Positions 2,846-54,472 of a DNA stretch of 58,075 bases are shown piece after piece. Position numbers and translations under genes: made by a program. The notes under the pieces were generated by a model, which was not told the origin of the DNA, did not search any database, and saw only the letters and a program-made list of their open reading frames with translations. The number at the start of each line of letters is the position of its first letter. Within the stretch, counting starts at the first letter, position 1. Where the stretch lies: positions 1-58,075 of the IMG/VR virus record IMGVR_UViG_3300030099_004038; one strand, given 5' to 3'. This DNA comes from a virus.

Positions 2846-2965
2846 AACATCTTGATGTTATTTTATTTAAAAGTCAACATCACCTTAATTAACTCTATAT
2901 CAATAACTTAGAGTTTACCGATGTTAAGATGTTAAGTTGAAGACCAAAAAACAGTAGTATAATAA
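2846..2965. repeat. GATGTTAA repeat locus 1, upstream of groEL
   Basis: A non-coding repeat cluster. AACATC-tt-GATGTT (2846-2859) is an inverted repeat. A GTCAACATC copy lies at 2873-2881. AACTCTA/TAGAGTT (2891-2897, 2909-2915) is a second inverted repeat. GATGTTAA occurs twice in tandem at 2920-2935. Next to it are AGTAGTATAATAAA and a run of alternating A/T (2961-2977). A similar arrangement occurs at 51816-51982. The mixture of short iterons and an easily melted AT stretch resembles a replication origin or an operator; which one cannot be decided here. Confidence 0.55.
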
Positions 2966-3048
2966 ATATATATATAGAGAAAAATATATATTTTAAAAAG
3001 CTGTTTAAAAGTAAACACCTCAACATTTATATTAATTATATTTTTTTA

Positions 3049-3056
3049 TATATTTG
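3049..3056 (+). promoter_or_regulatory. groEL promoter (-7 element)
   Basis: TATATTTG at 3049-3056, 24 bases before the groEL start. No clear -33 TTG is present. It lies downstream of the repeat locus at 2846-2965. Confidence 0.5.
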
Positions 3057-4815: not shown

Positions 4816-5032
4816 GGAAGAATTAAAAACTTCATCTGGCTTATTACTGTCAAATGAAGACGCAAACAACTTTAGGTATAAAAAAGGAGAAGTTGTTGAG
4901 CCCGGAACAGATATAAGTGTAATAAATAAAGGAGACTTAATATATTACGATAAAGCAGCTGGTCATGAAATGTTTATCAAGGATAAAGTATATACCGTTA
5001 TTCTTGAGAGAGATGTCGTTGTTGTTTTATAA
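4775..5032 (+). CDS. groS: Co-chaperonin GroES (Cpn10), compact form
   Basis: An 85-aa GroES-like protein, shorter than the usual 95-100 aa. The N-terminus MKPIGKYLVIKKIKEELKTS matches the first strand and entry to the mobile loop. SGLLL (21-25) corresponds to the hydrophobic GroEL-binding tip. YKKGEVVEPG, INKGDLIYYDKAAG and the C-terminal VYTVILERDVVVVL match the conserved barrel. It should cap the phage GroEL. It starts inside the 52-aa ORF, and its last 35 bases overlap the convergent winged-helix gene. Confidence 0.93.
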   Translation: MKPIGKYLVIKKIKEELKTSSGLLLSNEDANNFRYKKGEVVEPGTDISVINKGDLIYYDKAAGHEMFIKDKVYTVILERDVVVVL

Positions 5033-5471
5033 ACCTATTCATTTCTATAATCATATTTCTGTAAACCTTATCCATGTAAGTAGCGTCATGTCTAAAAAGT
5101 GGATTCGAGCTCGGAGACTCTGCGATCTCCTCGCCACTTAACTTCTTATACAAAGTGTTTATTAGTCTTTTACCTTTATATGATAATTCATATAGCGTAG
5201 CCTCATTGCCTTGTCGTTTACGCCAAACATGAATATATCCTTGTTTTAGTAATCTATAAAACCTGGGTTCATCCCAAGACATACACTGTTCAAACTCTTT
5301 GAATTTAGTTTTGTTAAAGATATGTTCGCTATAAAGGAAAAATAGCATATCTATATCCGGAGTTCCGATTTTGTATTTGGCTTTAGCCCAATACCTTATC
5401 ACCCTCCAATACTTCATATAATCGTTTGAGGGTTGAACTCGATCGTAGTTCTTTCTTATTATATTTGACAT
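4998..5471 (-). CDS. Winged-helix-like putative transcription regulator
   Basis: A 157-aa protein and the only minus-strand gene within the plus-strand arm. Residues about 40-115 read as a winged helix: hydrophobic helices (DIDMLFFLYSEHIF), a candidate recognition helix (SWDEPRFYRLLKQGYIHVW) and a wing (RKRQGNEATLYELSYKGKRLINTL), which resembles MarR/PadR-type domains. The C-terminal third is helical. A TAGTTTTG element at 5506-5499 could be its promoter and sits beside the divergent promoter for 5525, a layout typical of a regulator controlling its own region. The target is unknown. Confidence 0.7.
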   Translation of the reverse strand: MSNIIRKNYDRVQPSNDYMKYWRVIRYWAKAKYKIGTPDIDMLFFLYSEHIFNKTKFKEFEQCMSWDEPRFYRLLKQGYIHVWRKRQGNEATLYELSYKGKRLINTLYKKLSGEEIAESPSSNPLFRHDATYMDKVYRNMIIEMNRFIKQQRHLSQE

Positions 5472-46865: not shown

Positions 46866-47056
46866 TATATTTCATCCGACAAAGATTGTATTAAGTCTGC
46901 AAGTTTTTCAATAAGTTCTTGAGCTTTTTCTTTTGCCTCTTGATTTTCTCGATCCATTAAATGTTCGTATATTTGATCCCCGAAGTCGTGTATGCTGTCT
47001 GCCAAAAATGTTATGTGGCTGATTGATTGTCGGTCGTCTGGAGAGATTGGTGGCAT
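46865..47056 (-). CDS. 63-aa acidic helical protein, unknown
   Basis: Helical with a Gln/Glu/Leu-rich C-terminal half (REQ-free start MPPISPDDRQSISHITFLAD, then EAKEKAQELIEKLADLIQSL). It overlaps the DnaA-like gene end by 46 bases and its TAG overlaps the HNH GTG start. No family recognised. Confidence 0.55.
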   Translation of the reverse strand: MPPISPDDRQSISHITFLADSIHDFGDQIYEHLMDRENQEAKEKAQELIEKLADLIQSLSDEI

Positions 47057-47472
47057 TTACAATCGCTAATTAATTTATTTAACTTTTTGTGAACATCAAT
47101 TAGTTCCAAATTTAACATTTTATTTTGTTCATGCAAGGATTTTATCTCTTTTTTTATAAAAAATGGATCAACATCTTCAAAAGAATCAGACTCGTTAAAC
47201 CATAAGTGTTTGATTTCCAGATAGTCAGACTGTATAGATTTGTCATACGCACACAAGGCTTCATAATTTTTTAAAGCACATAAAACTGACGCGTGGTTTT
47301 TGTTAAAATGCCTTCCTATTTCTTTAAAGGTCATTTTTAGTTCATCTCTTAAAATTTTATATGCCAGTGTTCGGGCTACTATGTAATGGTATTTTCTACA
47401 TTTAGACGTAACATCAACACCGCAATAGGTGCTAACCATGTCTTTTATAAACTTTACTTTTTCGTGTTTCAT
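47011..47472 (-). CDS. DnaA domain IV-like DNA-binding protein
   Basis: 153 aa. Residues about 10-77 resemble DnaA domain IV, which binds the replication origin: CRKYHYIVARTLAYKILRDE (25-44) corresponds to the R...ARxIAxYLxR helix, MTFKEIGRHFNKNHASVLCA (47-66) to the SLxEIGxxFGxRDHSTVxxA recognition motif with H60 and S62 in place. The ATPase domain of DnaA is absent; the rest is helical (KKEIKSLHEQNKMLNLELID) with two Cys near the end. A phage origin-binding or repressor-like role is inferred. A second such protein is at 54176. Confidence 0.78.
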   Translation of the reverse strand: MKHEKVKFIKDMVSTYCGVDVTSKCRKYHYIVARTLAYKILRDELKMTFKEIGRHFNKNHASVLCALKNYEALCAYDKSIQSDYLEIKHLWFNESDSFEDVDPFFIKKEIKSLHEQNKMLNLELIDVHKKLNKLISDCKCHQSLQTTDNQSAT

Positions 47473-48174: not shown

Positions 48175-49406
48175 TACAAATTTAATAAATCCTTTTTGAA
48201 GTGTCTAAGGGTGTAGTCTTTCTTTTTAATAACAGCCTTGTATATCTCTTTTTCTATACCCTTTTTACTAAATATCCAGTAAACCTCATTCTTTAATCTG
48301 TCTTTAGTTGTCATACGATCCCTTGATTGCCAATAACTTGTAGCACTAAAATCAATATTATAATAAACTAAAGCATTAGCCTTTCGTAAAGATATACCTT
48401 CTCTACCGCTAACAATTTGAAGGGCAATATTTTTATCTGTACCGTCAAACTCTTCCAGTGTAGTACATAAAGAATCTCCAAAAACTTCTTTCAAAGCATT
48501 AAGCTCTTCTTTAAATTTATAAAATATACCTATCTTCATCTTCTTAAATTTGTTCTTAATAAATTTGGCTTTTGATAAGTCAATTACCATTGAGTTTCCG
48601 CTTTCAAATTTTATAGTTCCGCTACAAAGCTGATGTACTTTAGTCATAAGCTTTACCGCAGTGTCTGCTAATATTACCTCTTCCTTTCCTTCTACAACTA
48701 AATCTTTTTTTAACTTAGATATAAGATCAGTAGTTTCTTTTTTGATGTCCACCTCCAGTATATGTTCATTTGTATTTACTACAAAGCCCGCCTCTTTTTG
48801 GCTAAAAGATATTGTGTATGGCTTCATGTGTTCTATAATATTTGTATTACCTTTAGAGTAATCATTTATATAAAGCCCTCCTATTTTTTTCTTAACCACG
48901 CTTACATACTGTGAAGCAAATTTGTAAAAAGTTCTGTGTTGTTTGAAAGGGTTGTTAGGTATAAAATAAACTTGATGATACATTTGAGAGTACGCTTCTG
49001 GAGTAGGGGTTCCGCTCAAAAGTATTACATAAGGATTGTTCCAAAAAACAAACTCTTTTACTTTTTTAGATCTTCCATTAGGTTTTGGAAAAGCACCCAT
49101 ACTATGTGCCTCATCGCATATTACAACATCCCAGCCTTTTTTTGGTATCTTGTGTAAAGATTCGTAATTAATAACCTGTAAATTATAATCAGGATTATAC
49201 ATTTGAAAATCTTTTTCTATACTTGATATTGCTTTTTTCTTTGTAATAAACAAAACGTTTTTTATATTAAGATAATTACATATCCCTAAACTCGTAAGAG
49301 TTTTGCCAGTCCTAACCTCCATAGCTAAATACAAGAACCGGTGTTCTTTTAAAACTCCAAGGCCTTTGGATATAATATTTTTTTGGTAGTCTCTAAACTC
49401 TATCAT
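48174..49406 (-). CDS. SF2 (SNF2-like) helicase/ATPase
   Basis: 410 aa with the superfamily 2 motifs: Walker A VRTGKTLTSLG (GKT at 34-36), motif II ICDEAH (DEAH at 98-101), motif III LSGTPT (131-135), motif V-like IVSGREGISL (331-340) and a motif VI-like YWQSRDRM (358-365). The compact size and GKT-DEAH layout match phage DNA helicases related to UvsW/SNF2 proteins, which remodel recombination intermediates. It overlaps the primase-helicase by 4 bases and precedes VRR-NUC, the same pairing seen in many phages. Confidence 0.88.
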   Translation of the reverse strand: MIEFRDYQKNIISKGLGVLKEHRFLYLAMEVRTGKTLTSLGICNYLNIKNVLFITKKKAISSIEKDFQMYNPDYNLQVINYESLHKIPKKGWDVVICDEAHSMGAFPKPNGRSKKVKEFVFWNNPYVILLSGTPTPEAYSQMYHQVYFIPNNPFKQHRTFYKFASQYVSVVKKKIGGLYINDYSKGNTNIIEHMKPYTISFSQKEAGFVVNTNEHILEVDIKKETTDLISKLKKDLVVEGKEEVILADTAVKLMTKVHQLCSGTIKFESGNSMVIDLSKAKFIKNKFKKMKIGIFYKFKEELNALKEVFGDSLCTTLEEFDGTDKNIALQIVSGREGISLRKANALVYYNIDFSATSYWQSRDRMTTKDRLKNEVYWIFSKKGIEKEIYKAVIKKKDYTLRHFKKDLLNL

Positions 49407-51814
49407 ATCTTAATCTCTCCTTGTTTATCGTAATAACTTTTGTTTACAAACTGAACCCACTTACCTATTTTATCTCTTCCTTCTATTGCAGGACAATCAT
49501 ATTTAAATTGTGAGTATGAAGCAATCCATTTGTTAAATCTAATTCTACTTATAGTCATTTTAGATTTTGGAGCAAAGTCAGGATATTCATTTGTAAAGTC
49601 TAAATACAAATCATTTACATATATCCTGGTATTTTTAATTAATTTTTCATTAGACTGTCCCCCTATAACACCACACCACTCTACAAACTCATGTGAAGTT
49701 TCAGCAGAAAATCTTCTTGTTTTTAAATTAACAAAGTCACTTTTTAATAATCCTTTATCTAAGTATAATTGCAAACAGCTAATCATATAATTGTCAAACT
49801 GACACCAGTCATTATCATTCCACTCTCCAAACATTAGTTTACCAAACTCAACAAGAGGGGTAAATTCTTTAGTATAATATTGACTAAGTTCTAACTCCCA
49901 CTTTCTTCTTTCAAAAGAAGATCCCTTTCCTTTTATTGCGTAGTTTGTAGTAATGGCTACCTTCGGAGATTTGCTAAATGGTATTTTAATTGCGTCTTTG
50001 TTTTTCTTTTCAAGAGTCAATCCTTCTGTGACCACACTAAATAATCTTTCAAAATCAAAATGTTTTTTTACATCATCAAAACAAAGTATTTGTGTGTCTG
50101 CTGATACCAACTGATAAGCAAAGGATTTTTCAAAATTAAATGATTTACCATCTATCACGACCAGTTTTTTCATGTGAGAAAGCCCATTCATAAACAACCC
50201 TTTACCAGTTCCTCCTTCCGGATTGTCTGATATAACCTCATCATTTAAAATTGTTGCCGGACAATAAGATAAATTTTTCCATCCATGTAATAAAAATCCT
50301 ATCGTAGATTCCATCGATCTAATTCGCTTTTCAGTTTTGCCGGATATGTTGTCTACAAAAATTTTGTAATCACAATTATTTACCTCACATATTTCAAACA
50401 CCCTATCAATAACATGGTCCTTCCAAACGTATCCCCCCAAATCTAAATAATCTATAGGTGTTATTTCTTCTTTAGTAATTTTAACCGCACAATTTGTATA
50501 ATATAAGTAGGCTGTATCTTTAGAGTCTTCTATAAAAAATACATCAATAGATGAAAGCAAGGTAAGAAACTCTTCTCTAAAATATCTCGTGCATTCAGCA
50601 AAATAGTTGTATACCGAAGTATCATCTAAGTCGTATAAATAATTTAAAATAAAATCTTTGATTTCTTTTTCTGAAGTATGGTCTATTAAGTTGTTAGTAA
50701 CCTTTACAAAAACATAATTCTTACTACCTTGTGGATTAAATTTATAAAAACCATTGTCTTCTAAAAACTTTTTAAAAGATATATGAATAATTTTTATAAC
50801 TCCTTTTTCTGATTTGCTCCAAAACTTTTGTTGATCTTGTTCTTCTTCAAGTCTTCTTATTACATTATCTAAAACACTATCATCAATTTCTGATTCCTCC
50901 TCCAGTTGTGTTTTGATCTCCCCTTTGTTTACACCTCTTCTTAATTTTTGCTTTACCTCGTTTACCTTGTCTTCATCTTCGTAATATTTAGTACCAAAGT
51001 TTTGTACTTGTTGATAAGCCGAGTGTATTGTTCTTCTTATTTCTGATTGAGGAAAATCTTGAGACGCAAAGCTATTCATAATATATTCAGCAAGCCCCTT
51101 TGATACACCGAAGTCGTTGAAGGCTGAGGCTAACACATAAACATTATTATTTCTTTCTCCACTTTTCAATCCATACTTTCTTTCCCACCATTTAATTAAT
51201 ATCTCTACTATTTTATTTTCATCTGTTATAGGTATAGTTTGAACGTCTTTAAATTTATTTACCTCTTGATATTTTTGTTCTGTTATTTGATTAAATACAC
51301 TGGATTGTTCATTGGTAAAAATAAGAGGGTCGTAACTTTCATAACAAACCCTTGATATATTTTTACAAGTCTCATCAAAGTAAGGGGAGTCAAAGTGGTG
51401 TTGTAATGAATTAAAAAAGTTTTTATGATTATCAGGCTCCGATGGTATCTTAACCAAGACTTTTAATCCCAGTCCACTGGGGGATATAAATACTGAATAA
51501 ACATATCTATCTTTAGTTAATTTTTCTTTTTCTTCTAATAATAATTTGTCGTTTTCATAACCATCAAAGTCTAAACATATAAGCCCACTGTGTTGCGTAA
51601 TGGATGCATCGTTTCTTTTTGTAAATTTACCACTAAAACATATTGCTGGTAATGAGGACTTTAATTTATTTCTTTTGTGTTTATCTTTTTCTTGTCTTAT
51701 TTTTTTTACTAATTCTTTGCTTGATCCATCCCCTATTCGTTTTAATACTACTGCTACATCTCTATAAAAAGGTTGAGAAGTATCTTTAATATCTTTAAAT
51801 ATTGTTATTTCCAT
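49403..51814 (-). CDS. Primase-helicase (BT4734/VirE-N type plus SF3-like)
   Basis: 803 aa, two modules. Residues about 10-165 form a BT4734/VirE-N-like archaeo-eukaryotic primase domain: ICLDFDG (79-85, metal-binding Asp82/Asp84), SPSGLGLKVLVKI (111-123), and D147...R155. Near 534-539 a P-loop GGTGKG and downstream LCFDDV and AITTNYA (Walker B and sensor-type motifs) belong to an SF3-like helicase. Such fused proteins prime and unwind phage DNA and are the central replication enzyme here, as no DNA polymerase is recognised. Upstream lies repeat locus 2, so its expression may be controlled there. A start at ATG 51814 fits. Confidence 0.83.
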   Translation of the reverse strand: MEITIFKDIKDTSQPFYRDVAVVLKRIGDGSSKELVKKIRQEKDKHKRNKLKSSLPAICFSGKFTKRNDASITQHSGLICLDFDGYENDKLLLEEKEKLTKDRYVYSVFISPSGLGLKVLVKIPSEPDNHKNFFNSLQHHFDSPYFDETCKNISRVCYESYDPLIFTNEQSSVFNQITEQKYQEVNKFKDVQTIPITDENKIVEILIKWWERKYGLKSGERNNNVYVLASAFNDFGVSKGLAEYIMNSFASQDFPQSEIRRTIHSAYQQVQNFGTKYYEDEDKVNEVKQKLRRGVNKGEIKTQLEEESEIDDSVLDNVIRRLEEEQDQQKFWSKSEKGVIKIIHISFKKFLEDNGFYKFNPQGSKNYVFVKVTNNLIDHTSEKEIKDFILNYLYDLDDTSVYNYFAECTRYFREEFLTLLSSIDVFFIEDSKDTAYLYYTNCAVKITKEEITPIDYLDLGGYVWKDHVIDRVFEICEVNNCDYKIFVDNISGKTEKRIRSMESTIGFLLHGWKNLSYCPATILNDEVISDNPEGGTGKGLFMNGLSHMKKLVVIDGKSFNFEKSFAYQLVSADTQILCFDDVKKHFDFERLFSVVTEGLTLEKKNKDAIKIPFSKSPKVAITTNYAIKGKGSSFERRKWELELSQYYTKEFTPLVEFGKLMFGEWNDNDWCQFDNYMISCLQLYLDKGLLKSDFVNLKTRRFSAETSHEFVEWCGVIGGQSNEKLIKNTRIYVNDLYLDFTNEYPDFAPKSKMTISRIRFNKWIASYSQFKYDCPAIEGRDKIGKWVQFVNKSYYDKQGEIKI

Positions 51815-51815
51815 T

Positions 51816-51982
51816 TGATTTGATGTTGATTTGATGTTAATTTAATTTTCCCTTTTACTACTTATAACTTTCTTTTAAATGTTAAGATGTTAAGTTTAAA
51901 GTAAAAAATTATAGTAGAATAAAAAGACTGCTAAATTAAAATTTATTTTACAAAAAACAACAATAAAGTCAACATCTTAACA
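51816..51982. repeat. GATGTTAA repeat locus 2, upstream of primase-helicase
   Basis: A non-coding repeat cluster. An 11-base unit TGATTTGATGT occurs twice in tandem at 51816-51837. ATGTTAAGATGTTAAG (51879-51894) resembles locus 1. TGTTAAGATGTT (51880-51891) and AACATCTTAACA (51971-51982) are perfect 12-bp inverted repeats about 80 bases apart. GTCAACATC is at 51968-51976, and AGTAGAATAAAA follows the direct copy as at locus 1. Between them lies A/T-rich sequence. Position upstream of the main replication gene suits an origin or operator. Confidence 0.55.
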
Positions 51983-51992
51983 CCAATAAGAC

Positions 51993-52048
51993 AAAAAAAT
52001 AAGGAGGATACCCGTTCTTCTTTACTGCCCGGTCTAAAACCTCCTTAT
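51993..52048 (-). terminator. Hairpin terminator after the SSB-like gene, long loop
   Basis: On the minus strand ATAAGGAGG (52048 to 52040) pairs with CCTCCTTAT (52007 to 51999), 9 bp perfect, followed by seven T (51999 to 51993). The loop is 32 bases. The same stem length and loop size occur after the capsid gene at 23755-23812. Confidence 0.7.
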
Positions 52049-52061
52049 CTTTATAACCAGT

Positions 52062-52322
52062 TTAGAAAGGTAGATCTTCATCTCCTGCCGGGGCAGTTTC
52101 TTTCTTTGGCTCTGGTTTGAATGTATCAATAGCAACATAATGAGTTTTACCATAATCATCAGCTCCATCTTTTTTAGCTGATACATTTACTTTAATGTAT
52201 TTTTTACCATTATACTCAAACATGTGTTCTTGAGGTAAGTCTGATAAACAAATACTACAGGAAATCATATTCCCATCAAATTTGGAAGTTCCACTTCCGA
52301 CATAGATTTTTTCTTCTGCCAT
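52062..52322 (-). CDS. Compact SSB-like protein with acidic tip
   Basis: 86 aa. The N-terminal 65 residues are beta-rich (MISCSICLSDLPQEHMFEYN, KKYIKVNVSAKKDGADDYGK) and could be a reduced OB-like fold. The C-terminus is acidic and ends GDEDLPF, matching the DDDIPF-type tip by which SSB recruits replication proteins. It lies upstream of the primase-helicase and downstream of the nuclease and annealing genes, as expected for an SSB. The reduced size and the lack of typical OB motifs lower confidence; another tip-carrying DNA-binding protein is possible. Confidence 0.55.
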   Translation of the reverse strand: MAEEKIYVGSGTSKFDGNMISCSICLSDLPQEHMFEYNGKKYIKVNVSAKKDGADDYGKTHYVAIDTFKPEPKKETAPAGDEDLPF

Positions 52323-53794: not shown

Positions 53795-54176
53795 TTAATT
53801 TGTTTTTTAGATTTGTATATTTATTTAATATTAATTCTCTCCTGTTTTTTAAGTGTTGTATATACTTATCGTTCTTTCTTGTATTTATTTCCATCTTAAC
53901 TTTCTCCTCTATCATCTCCAGTTTTCTTTTGCAGTTTTCTAAATTATTTAATATAGATCCTGTTTTCCATCCTTTAATATAAAAATTAAGATATTCCTCA
54001 TCATTACACTCTACAAAATAATCTCCACCTTTTGAGCAATTAAGTATTTCAATTCTTTCTTTAAACTTTTGTATCTTATATCCATAATTAATCACAATGA
54101 TTTTGTTTTTTAATTTTTGATAAATACCTTGTTTATCTTTAGTGGCTTGACTAAATATTTCTTCTAATGAATACAT
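53769..54176 (-). CDS. 135-aa basic coiled-coil-like early protein
   Basis: Helical and basic: IFSQATKDKQGIYQKLKNKI, then NNLENCKRKLEMIEEKVKME and NRRELILNKYTNLKNKLNGK. A beta-like middle segment holds two Cys. The start overlaps the stop of the DnaA-like gene (TAATG), and it overlaps the annealing gene by 26 bases. No family recognised. Confidence 0.6.
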   Translation of the reverse strand: MYSLEEIFSQATKDKQGIYQKLKNKIIVINYGYKIQKFKERIEILNCSKGGDYFVECNDEEYLNFYIKGWKTGSILNNLENCKRKLEMIEEKVKMEINTRKNDKYIQHLKNRRELILNKYTNLKNKLNGKKEQHI

Positions 54177-54472
54177 TATAATTTATTAGAGGCGTATTCT
54201 AATATTTTTTTATAATCCTCATCTTTATCAATAAGTTCCTTGGCTTTTTTATATCCATGAATAATGGTGGAGTGAGAAACATTGTGTCCGTTCTCTTCCA
54301 TAAATCTTTGGATGTAAGAAATTCGTATGGGGCGTTCCATACATAAATAATAAAGTATTTGTCTGGCATCTACACATTCTCTCTTTTTTGTTTTTTCAAA
54401 CATTTGATCTAATGTAAGATGAAATTGTTCGGCTATCGCGTTGGCATAAACCATAAATATATCCCTTTTCAT
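54176..54472 (-). CDS. Second DnaA domain IV-like protein
   Basis: 98 aa. Residues about 28-83 resemble DnaA domain IV: TKKRECVDARQILYYLCMER (28-47) matches the basic start and R...AR.I.YYL helix, and ENGHNVSHSTIIHGYKKAKE (60-79) matches the recognition loop with H67-S68-T69 in the position of DnaA HST. The protein has only 27 residues before this domain, so no ATPase. It is the shorter of two such proteins in the early arm. It could bind an origin or regulate host DnaA sites. Confidence 0.72.
   Translation of the reverse strand: MKRDIFMVYANAIAEQFHLTLDQMFEKTKKRECVDARQILYYLCMERPIRISYIQRFMEENGHNVSHSTIIHGYKKAKELIDKDEDYKKILEYASNKL

Follow-up and report, generated by a model that had tools for sequence, protein, structure and literature searches.

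The window analysed here is the whole 58,075-nucleotide stretch of the virus record IMGVR_UViG_3300030099_004038. Two distant non-coding loci in this window share a set of short repeats (boxes): locus G (2846-3026), upstream of groEL, and locus P (51823-51983), upstream of the gene for a primase-helicase. Two such loci with common repeats had been described in the original prediction from the sequence; their presence was confirmed, and they turned out to be larger than first noted. The features of the two loci and of the primase-helicase gene were as follows, with the source of each assignment in parentheses.

2845-2881, no strand assigned: upstream boxes of G, with the inverted CAACATC/GATGTTA at 2845-2860 and the box GTCAACATC at 2873-2881 (sequence, box list)
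2920-2935, plus strand: tandem box pair of G, GATGTTAAGATGTTAA, at 8-bp spacing, boxes at 2921 and 2929 (word counts, box list)
2936-3011, no strand assigned: A+T-rich spacer of G, 82% A+T, a proposed unwinding element (length conserved, sequence not)
3012-3026, minus strand: inverted box pair of G, TAAACACCTCAACAT (box list, sequence)
49403-51814, minus strand: primase-helicase, 803 amino acids, the proposed initiator (Pfam, NCBIfam, AlphaFold2)
49403-49726, minus strand: winged-helix domain of the primase-helicase, amino acids 697-803, proposed to bind the boxes (covariation, predicted topology)
49460-49462, 49475-49477 and 49616-49618, minus strand: codons of primase-helicase residues 785, 780 and 733, respectively
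51823-51840, plus strand: upstream boxes of P, ATGTTGA and ATGTTAA, 11 bp apart, at 51823 and 51834 (sequence, box list)
51879-51893, plus strand: tandem box pair of P, ATGTTAAGATGTTAA, boxes at 51879 and 51887 (word counts, box list)
51894-51968, no strand assigned: A+T-rich spacer of P, 84% A+T (sequence)
51969-51983, minus strand: inverted box pair of P, TCAACATCTTAACAC (box list, sequence)

G and P were found to have a common layout, in which upstream boxes are followed by a tandem RTGWYVA pair at 8 bp, by about 76 bp of more than 80% A+T and by an inverted pair. At both loci, as at iteron origins, several short direct repeats lie beside an A+T-rich region. Comparison of repeat counts with expectation, a check set out with the original prediction, indicated that the words were concentrated in G and P. 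The window has 10 exact copies of GATGTTAA, against 3.5 expected, a number reached by no shuffle, and 4 of the 10 fall inside the two loci. The tandem GATGTTAAGATGTTAAG was detected at two places only, as an exact copy at 2920 and in a one-mismatch form at 51878, while tandem box pairs, with an expectation of 0.37 per 58 kb, were seen at 2921, 51879 and 51983 (the last on the minus strand). The word GTCAACATC occurs only at 2873 and 51968, which is weak alone since two copies were also given by 7 of 100 shuffles, and its copies are not equivalent: the one at G is an upstream box, the one at P belongs to the inverted pair on the downstream side. The G counterpart of the P inverted pair is TAAACACCTCAACAT at 3012-3026, beyond the interval to which this locus had been assigned. 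An 11-bp tandem repeat and a 12-bp inverted repeat previously reported for P are both real. An AGTAG..AATAAA segment was also present as described but was not conserved, and AGTAG was not enriched.

In order to compare relatives, homologue sets were assembled that gave 80 viral loci for the primase-helicase and 59 for GroEL; from these, pairs of loci were formed for 45 phages carrying both genes. Box patterns were used to locate the repeats because a tandem and inverted score, used by itself for automatic word finding, gave too much noise relative to shuffles. The G/P architecture was found in most of the 45 paired phages, so that the loci are conserved in relatives, the second check set out originally, and the box word was specific to the lineage: GTGTTAA in L004/L089 and L008/L093, ATGTCAA in L080/L081, GTGTCGA in L010/L153, ATGACAG in L069/L159, ATGTTCA in L040/L149 and ATGACAA in L005. 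The P and G loci of one phage had 17.5 7-mers in common, compared with 9.5 for permuted pairs (maximum, 12.6; 20,000 permutations). Tandem spacing was equal at P and G in 16/16 phages, ten having 8 bp at both loci and six 9 bp. The distance from the inner tandem box to the inner inverted box was 83.8 bp (standard deviation, 1.6) at P and 84.2 bp (standard deviation, 1.0) at G, which is close to eight helical turns; the DNA in between was 85% A+T. Identity of the spacers between genomes was 0.41 to 0.46, hardly above the 0.38 to 0.41 of shuffles; it is therefore length and composition that are kept rather than sequence. Box density was compared in seven genomes, namely the window and six relatives of which nearly the whole sequence was read. 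G ranked among the two densest clusters in all seven, and P was the other in six. The two loci were separated by 9 to 12 kb on the circular map in relatives where both were scanned, flanking the early region, and both were present in MW202828.1, a complete circular relative. Overall, each genome has two sites of common architecture and fixed geometry that agree in word and spacing.

The primase-helicase was examined as the candidate binder. Pfam matches and structure prediction indicated BT4734-like_N, PriCT_1, a DUF5906 region with P-loop helicase motifs (GGTGKG, DD and TTN) and a C-terminal winged helix; an NCBIfam match to PrimPol_Db was below the cut-off. AlphaFold2 gave high confidence for residues 697 to 800, with a predicted order of helix, helix, strand, helix (733-743), helix (757-772), strand (777-780) and strand (785-789). 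On this model the C-terminal domain is predicted with high confidence to be a winged helix, in which residues 780 and 785 are placed on the wing strands and helix 2 begins at residue 733.

Phages were then labelled by box positions 4 and 5 (TT, TC or AC), and protein columns were scanned for mutual information with this label. Within the primase-helicase, column 785 ranked first (z, 16.2) and column 780 second. Residue 785 was K in 23/25 TT phages and R in 12/12 TC phages of this first set. When the scan was extended to 2,083 variable columns of 13 neighbouring conserved proteins, K785 and R780 of the primase-helicase again ranked first and second (z, 15.4 and 9.3); a small SSB-like open reading frame reached a z of only 2.8. 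Residue 733 was first spotted by eye and ranked 10th in the unbiased scan, weaker than 785; V, I or M was present only with TT and S or Q only with AC. Two separate AC lineages exhibited different solutions: one combines K780 with S/Q733, and the other has lost the aromatic residue at 732. On a tree built from residues 1 to 690, with the winged-helix domain left out, the box class changed 8 times and K/R 8 times, and independent pairs gave 5 concordant, 0 opposite and 1 unchanged. A held-out set of 35 later phages with less than 95% identity to the first set provided 15 clear cases, of which 14 agreed (K with TT in 6/7 and R with TC in 8/8; Fisher P = 0.0014), and MW202828.1 likewise obeys the K/R rule. 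In more distant relatives from genome bins R was seen with mixed words, and the rule is therefore that K785 nearly always goes with T and R785 with C or a mixture. Box position 5 is linked to residue 785, and position 4, more weakly, to residues 780 and 733. Arginine opposite C:G and lysine or a hydrophobic residue opposite T:A would be chemically sensible. By this covariation the repeat word is matched to the predicted DNA-binding domain of the putative cognate initiator.

Because these sites vary across relatives in step with the tail domain of the primase-helicase, they are most likely places where replication starts. Our reading, which we consider probable, is that the phage replicates from two iteron-type origins, G and P, to which its primase-helicase binds through the C-terminal winged helix. 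We infer box binding, melting, helicase loading and the start of replication at both sites. The primase-helicase would bind the boxes through its winged helix, and initiators would sit on an inward-pointing tandem pair on one side and on the inverted pair 84 bp away, bracketing the A+T-rich stretch. Two initiator assemblies could then meet face to face across this stretch of fixed length, melt it and load helicase in both directions. A fuller version, which we offer only tentatively, is that this phage lineage has a pair of origins whose word is determined by wing residue 785 (Lys or Arg) together with neighbouring residues, so that phages of the same waters have mutually exclusive origin specificities; in this version G, through its place next to the groEL promoter, would tie replication to activation of the rightward genes. 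If the origin reading holds, these odd repeats amount to an origin and initiator that can be put to the test in uncultured phages of a widespread group, with a named candidate binding domain, named residues that would change its preference and a series of naturally matched proteins and DNA sites in which the evolution of replication specificity can be studied.

Several observations weigh against this reading. Covariation is correlation, and it is from sequence that we infer binding by the winged helix. We assigned the box labels by patterns of our own, and the scan excluded phages whose words were of other types (ATTCCA and TGGCAG). The tree test had few independent events, the 5 concordant pairs alone giving a P value of 0.0625. 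Genomes with R785 often had mixed boxes, and there were exceptions to the rule, L015, L311 and L350 (R, mostly T) and L167 (L). AlphaFold2 confidence was low over most of the 803-amino-acid model, and the winged-helix matches returned by Foldseek with the C-terminal domain were all nonsignificant (best E value, 0.14). The relative G011 had no clean second cluster at P; a loose word pattern gave a different second cluster in this genome. A GC-skew minimum was present near G in 5/7 genomes, but gene direction also switches there, and GC skew, being confounded in this way, was dropped as evidence for an origin.

The alternative that survives best, although we regard it as unlikely, is that G and P are operators through which a regulator, perhaps the primase-helicase itself, controls the groEL or late promoter and expression of the primase. 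P lies just upstream of the primase gene, and G just upstream of a motif, TAnnTTTG, that we take to be a Bacteroidota-type -7 promoter element, as in this feature:

3049-3056, plus strand: TATATTTG, putative -7 element of the groEL promoter, some 22 bp past the inverted pair (TAnnTTTG motif)

The motif was found in 23/23 G loci with a tandem pair, 22 to 43 nucleotides (once 74) before the groEL start, and in most cases its distance from the boxes was nearly constant. At P, however, it was detected on the gene strand in only 3/29 genomes and on the opposite strand in none. Moreover, the orientation of the box arrangement relative to the downstream gene is opposite at P and the same at G, and mirrored pairs with an 84-bp A+T-rich spacer exceed what an operator needs. 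G may have an operator function in addition, and it may combine an origin with a promoter or affect the adjoining groEL promoter.

Binding of the boxes by one of two DnaA-domain-IV-like proteins, as in bacterial oriC, had been suggested originally and is, in our judgement, improbable. The genes of these proteins are as follows:

47011-47472, minus strand: DnaA-domain-IV-like protein A (PF08299 E value, 3.7e-9, above the cut-off)
54176-54472, minus strand: DnaA-domain-IV-like protein B (PF08299 E value, 3.5e-10, above the cut-off; DnaA structures matched in PDB)

Both are genuine DnaA_C homologues conserved in most relatives, and the A+T-rich spacer beside tandem boxes resembles the layout of boxes and DnaA-trios in Bacillus subtilis (PMC8287927). 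The matches were confined to the domain-IV end of DnaA profiles, rather than covering the AAA+ region plus domain IV of an initiator, whereas the published system opens DNA at the trios with domain III. In the 13-protein scan the best z values of A and B were 3.2 and 2.6, and no residue in either protein tracked the box word. Their recognition helices (NHATxxHA and HSTIIHGYKKAK) are near-invariant across the group; L004 (GTGTTAA) and L005 (ATGACAA) have different words but near-identical recognition helices in A and B. The absence of covariation and the invariance of these helices led us to reject A or B as the box binder. Boxes like TTATCCACA were not enriched in the window (20 one-mismatch sites against 18.6 expected), with none in P or G, and trio-like runs were weak: a DnaA-trio reading of AGTAG/AATAAA was discarded as not clearly above the A+T background, save for alternating AT runs in G. 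The annotation of these proteins in MW202828.1 is dnaA and chromosomal replication initiation protein, and annotation alone is insufficient to name phage DnaA-like proteins as origin binders. From the earlier proposal of a common binding protein with a replication or control role, the common binder and the replication role were supported, because word and spacing agree within genomes and differ between them and the architecture is origin-like; it was the DnaA-like identity of the binder that failed, as no covariation was detected.

A role of G and P in partition, packaging or recombination is highly improbable: such sites do show repeated motifs with inverted symmetry, but the covarying protein is the primase-helicase and not a partition, terminase or recombinase protein, and there are two sites, 9 to 12 kb apart, flanking the early region. 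The idea that G and P are alike only through an old duplication, or by chance in an A+T-rich genome where short words recur, can practically be dismissed, since fixed spacing and matched words within a genome, while the spacers diverge, need continuing selection.

The proposed origin-initiator pair was compared with known systems. The satellite phage P4 has two cis regions, ori and crr. Its alpha protein combines a primase, which is a bacterial-type TOPRIM enzyme, with a helicase and a winged helix that binds origin repeats (PMC4234260). The phage system is similar in having one protein with primase, helicase and a predicted winged helix and two cis regions, G and P, with the same repeats. It differs in its N terminus, which is BT4734-like with PriCT_1 and a weak PrimPol_Db match but no TOPRIM, and in the sequence of the repeats. 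No match to the P4 domain was obtained by sequence, nor any significant one by fold: this domain was absent among the 50 Foldseek matches listed for the C-terminal domain, and a search of PDB with the primase-helicase profile gave nothing relevant and no P4 domain match. SaPI Rep and SCCmec Cch2 are initiator helicases in which a C-terminal domain reads short iterons, apparently with two hexamers bound (PMC7581432), and a similar reading of iterons is proposed here. The SaPI origin, however, is directly downstream of rep, whereas P is upstream of its gene and G is 9 to 12 kb away, and primase and helicase regions, joined in one protein here, are so only sometimes in SaPIs. The phage system was assigned to neither the P4 alpha nor the SaPI type, since its primase domain is of another kind than TOPRIM and P lies upstream of the gene. 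ORF904 of pRN1 has the same order of activities, primase-polymerase, SF3 helicase and C-terminal winged helix, but stem-loops have been proposed for such proteins (PMC4234260), whereas the phage loci have clear iterons. A comparable arrangement, tandem boxes next to an A+T-rich region for unwinding, is present in the basal unwinding system of bacterial oriC (PMC8287927). The phage loci differ from it in their boxes, in having mirrored pairs on both sides and in that the phage DnaA-like proteins consist of domain IV only.

A further feature of G was a candidate bending site:

2898-2910, plus strand: TATCAATAACTTA, which matches the IHF consensus WATCAANNNNTTR (sequence)

IHF sites are common at origins. 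The consensus was detected in the G loci of 17/29 genomes, against 2.3 (maximum, 8) in shuffles, with a weak enrichment at P (5/29 genomes against 1.3 expected). A strong hairpin, GGAGG...CCTCC (51999-52053), resembles a terminator and lies between P and the SSB-like open reading frame (52062-52322), which it follows; similar hairpins occupy the same place in relatives. A 157-amino-acid protein encoded antisense beside groES (4998-5471, minus strand) gave weak matches to transcription regulators, and a repressor is annotated in MW202828.1 at the corresponding place. Relatives of the primase-helicase in genome bins came mostly from Bacteroidota bins, and phage matches included Flavobacterium, Cellulophaga and Polaribacter phages. 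Together with the promoter type, these matches suggest that the host of this podovirus is probably a member of the Bacteroidota.

Variant repeats were observed in other relatives. The P loci of L041, L048, L050 to L052, L055 and L077 had ATTCCA at 11-bp spacing in place of RTGWYVA, and residues 732 to 734 of these phages were FKQ, YKQ or YKS. L061/L106 and L079/L156 had TGGCAGA words at G and no clear array at P, with proline at residue 734 (IYKPDLY). A primase-helicase with 44% identity was found in L360 (CANMIL010000004.1), a 343,890-bp bacterial contig of an uncultured Tenacibaculum, where it is preceded by many AACACTT/AAGTGTTGC repeats and may belong to a prophage with its own iterons.
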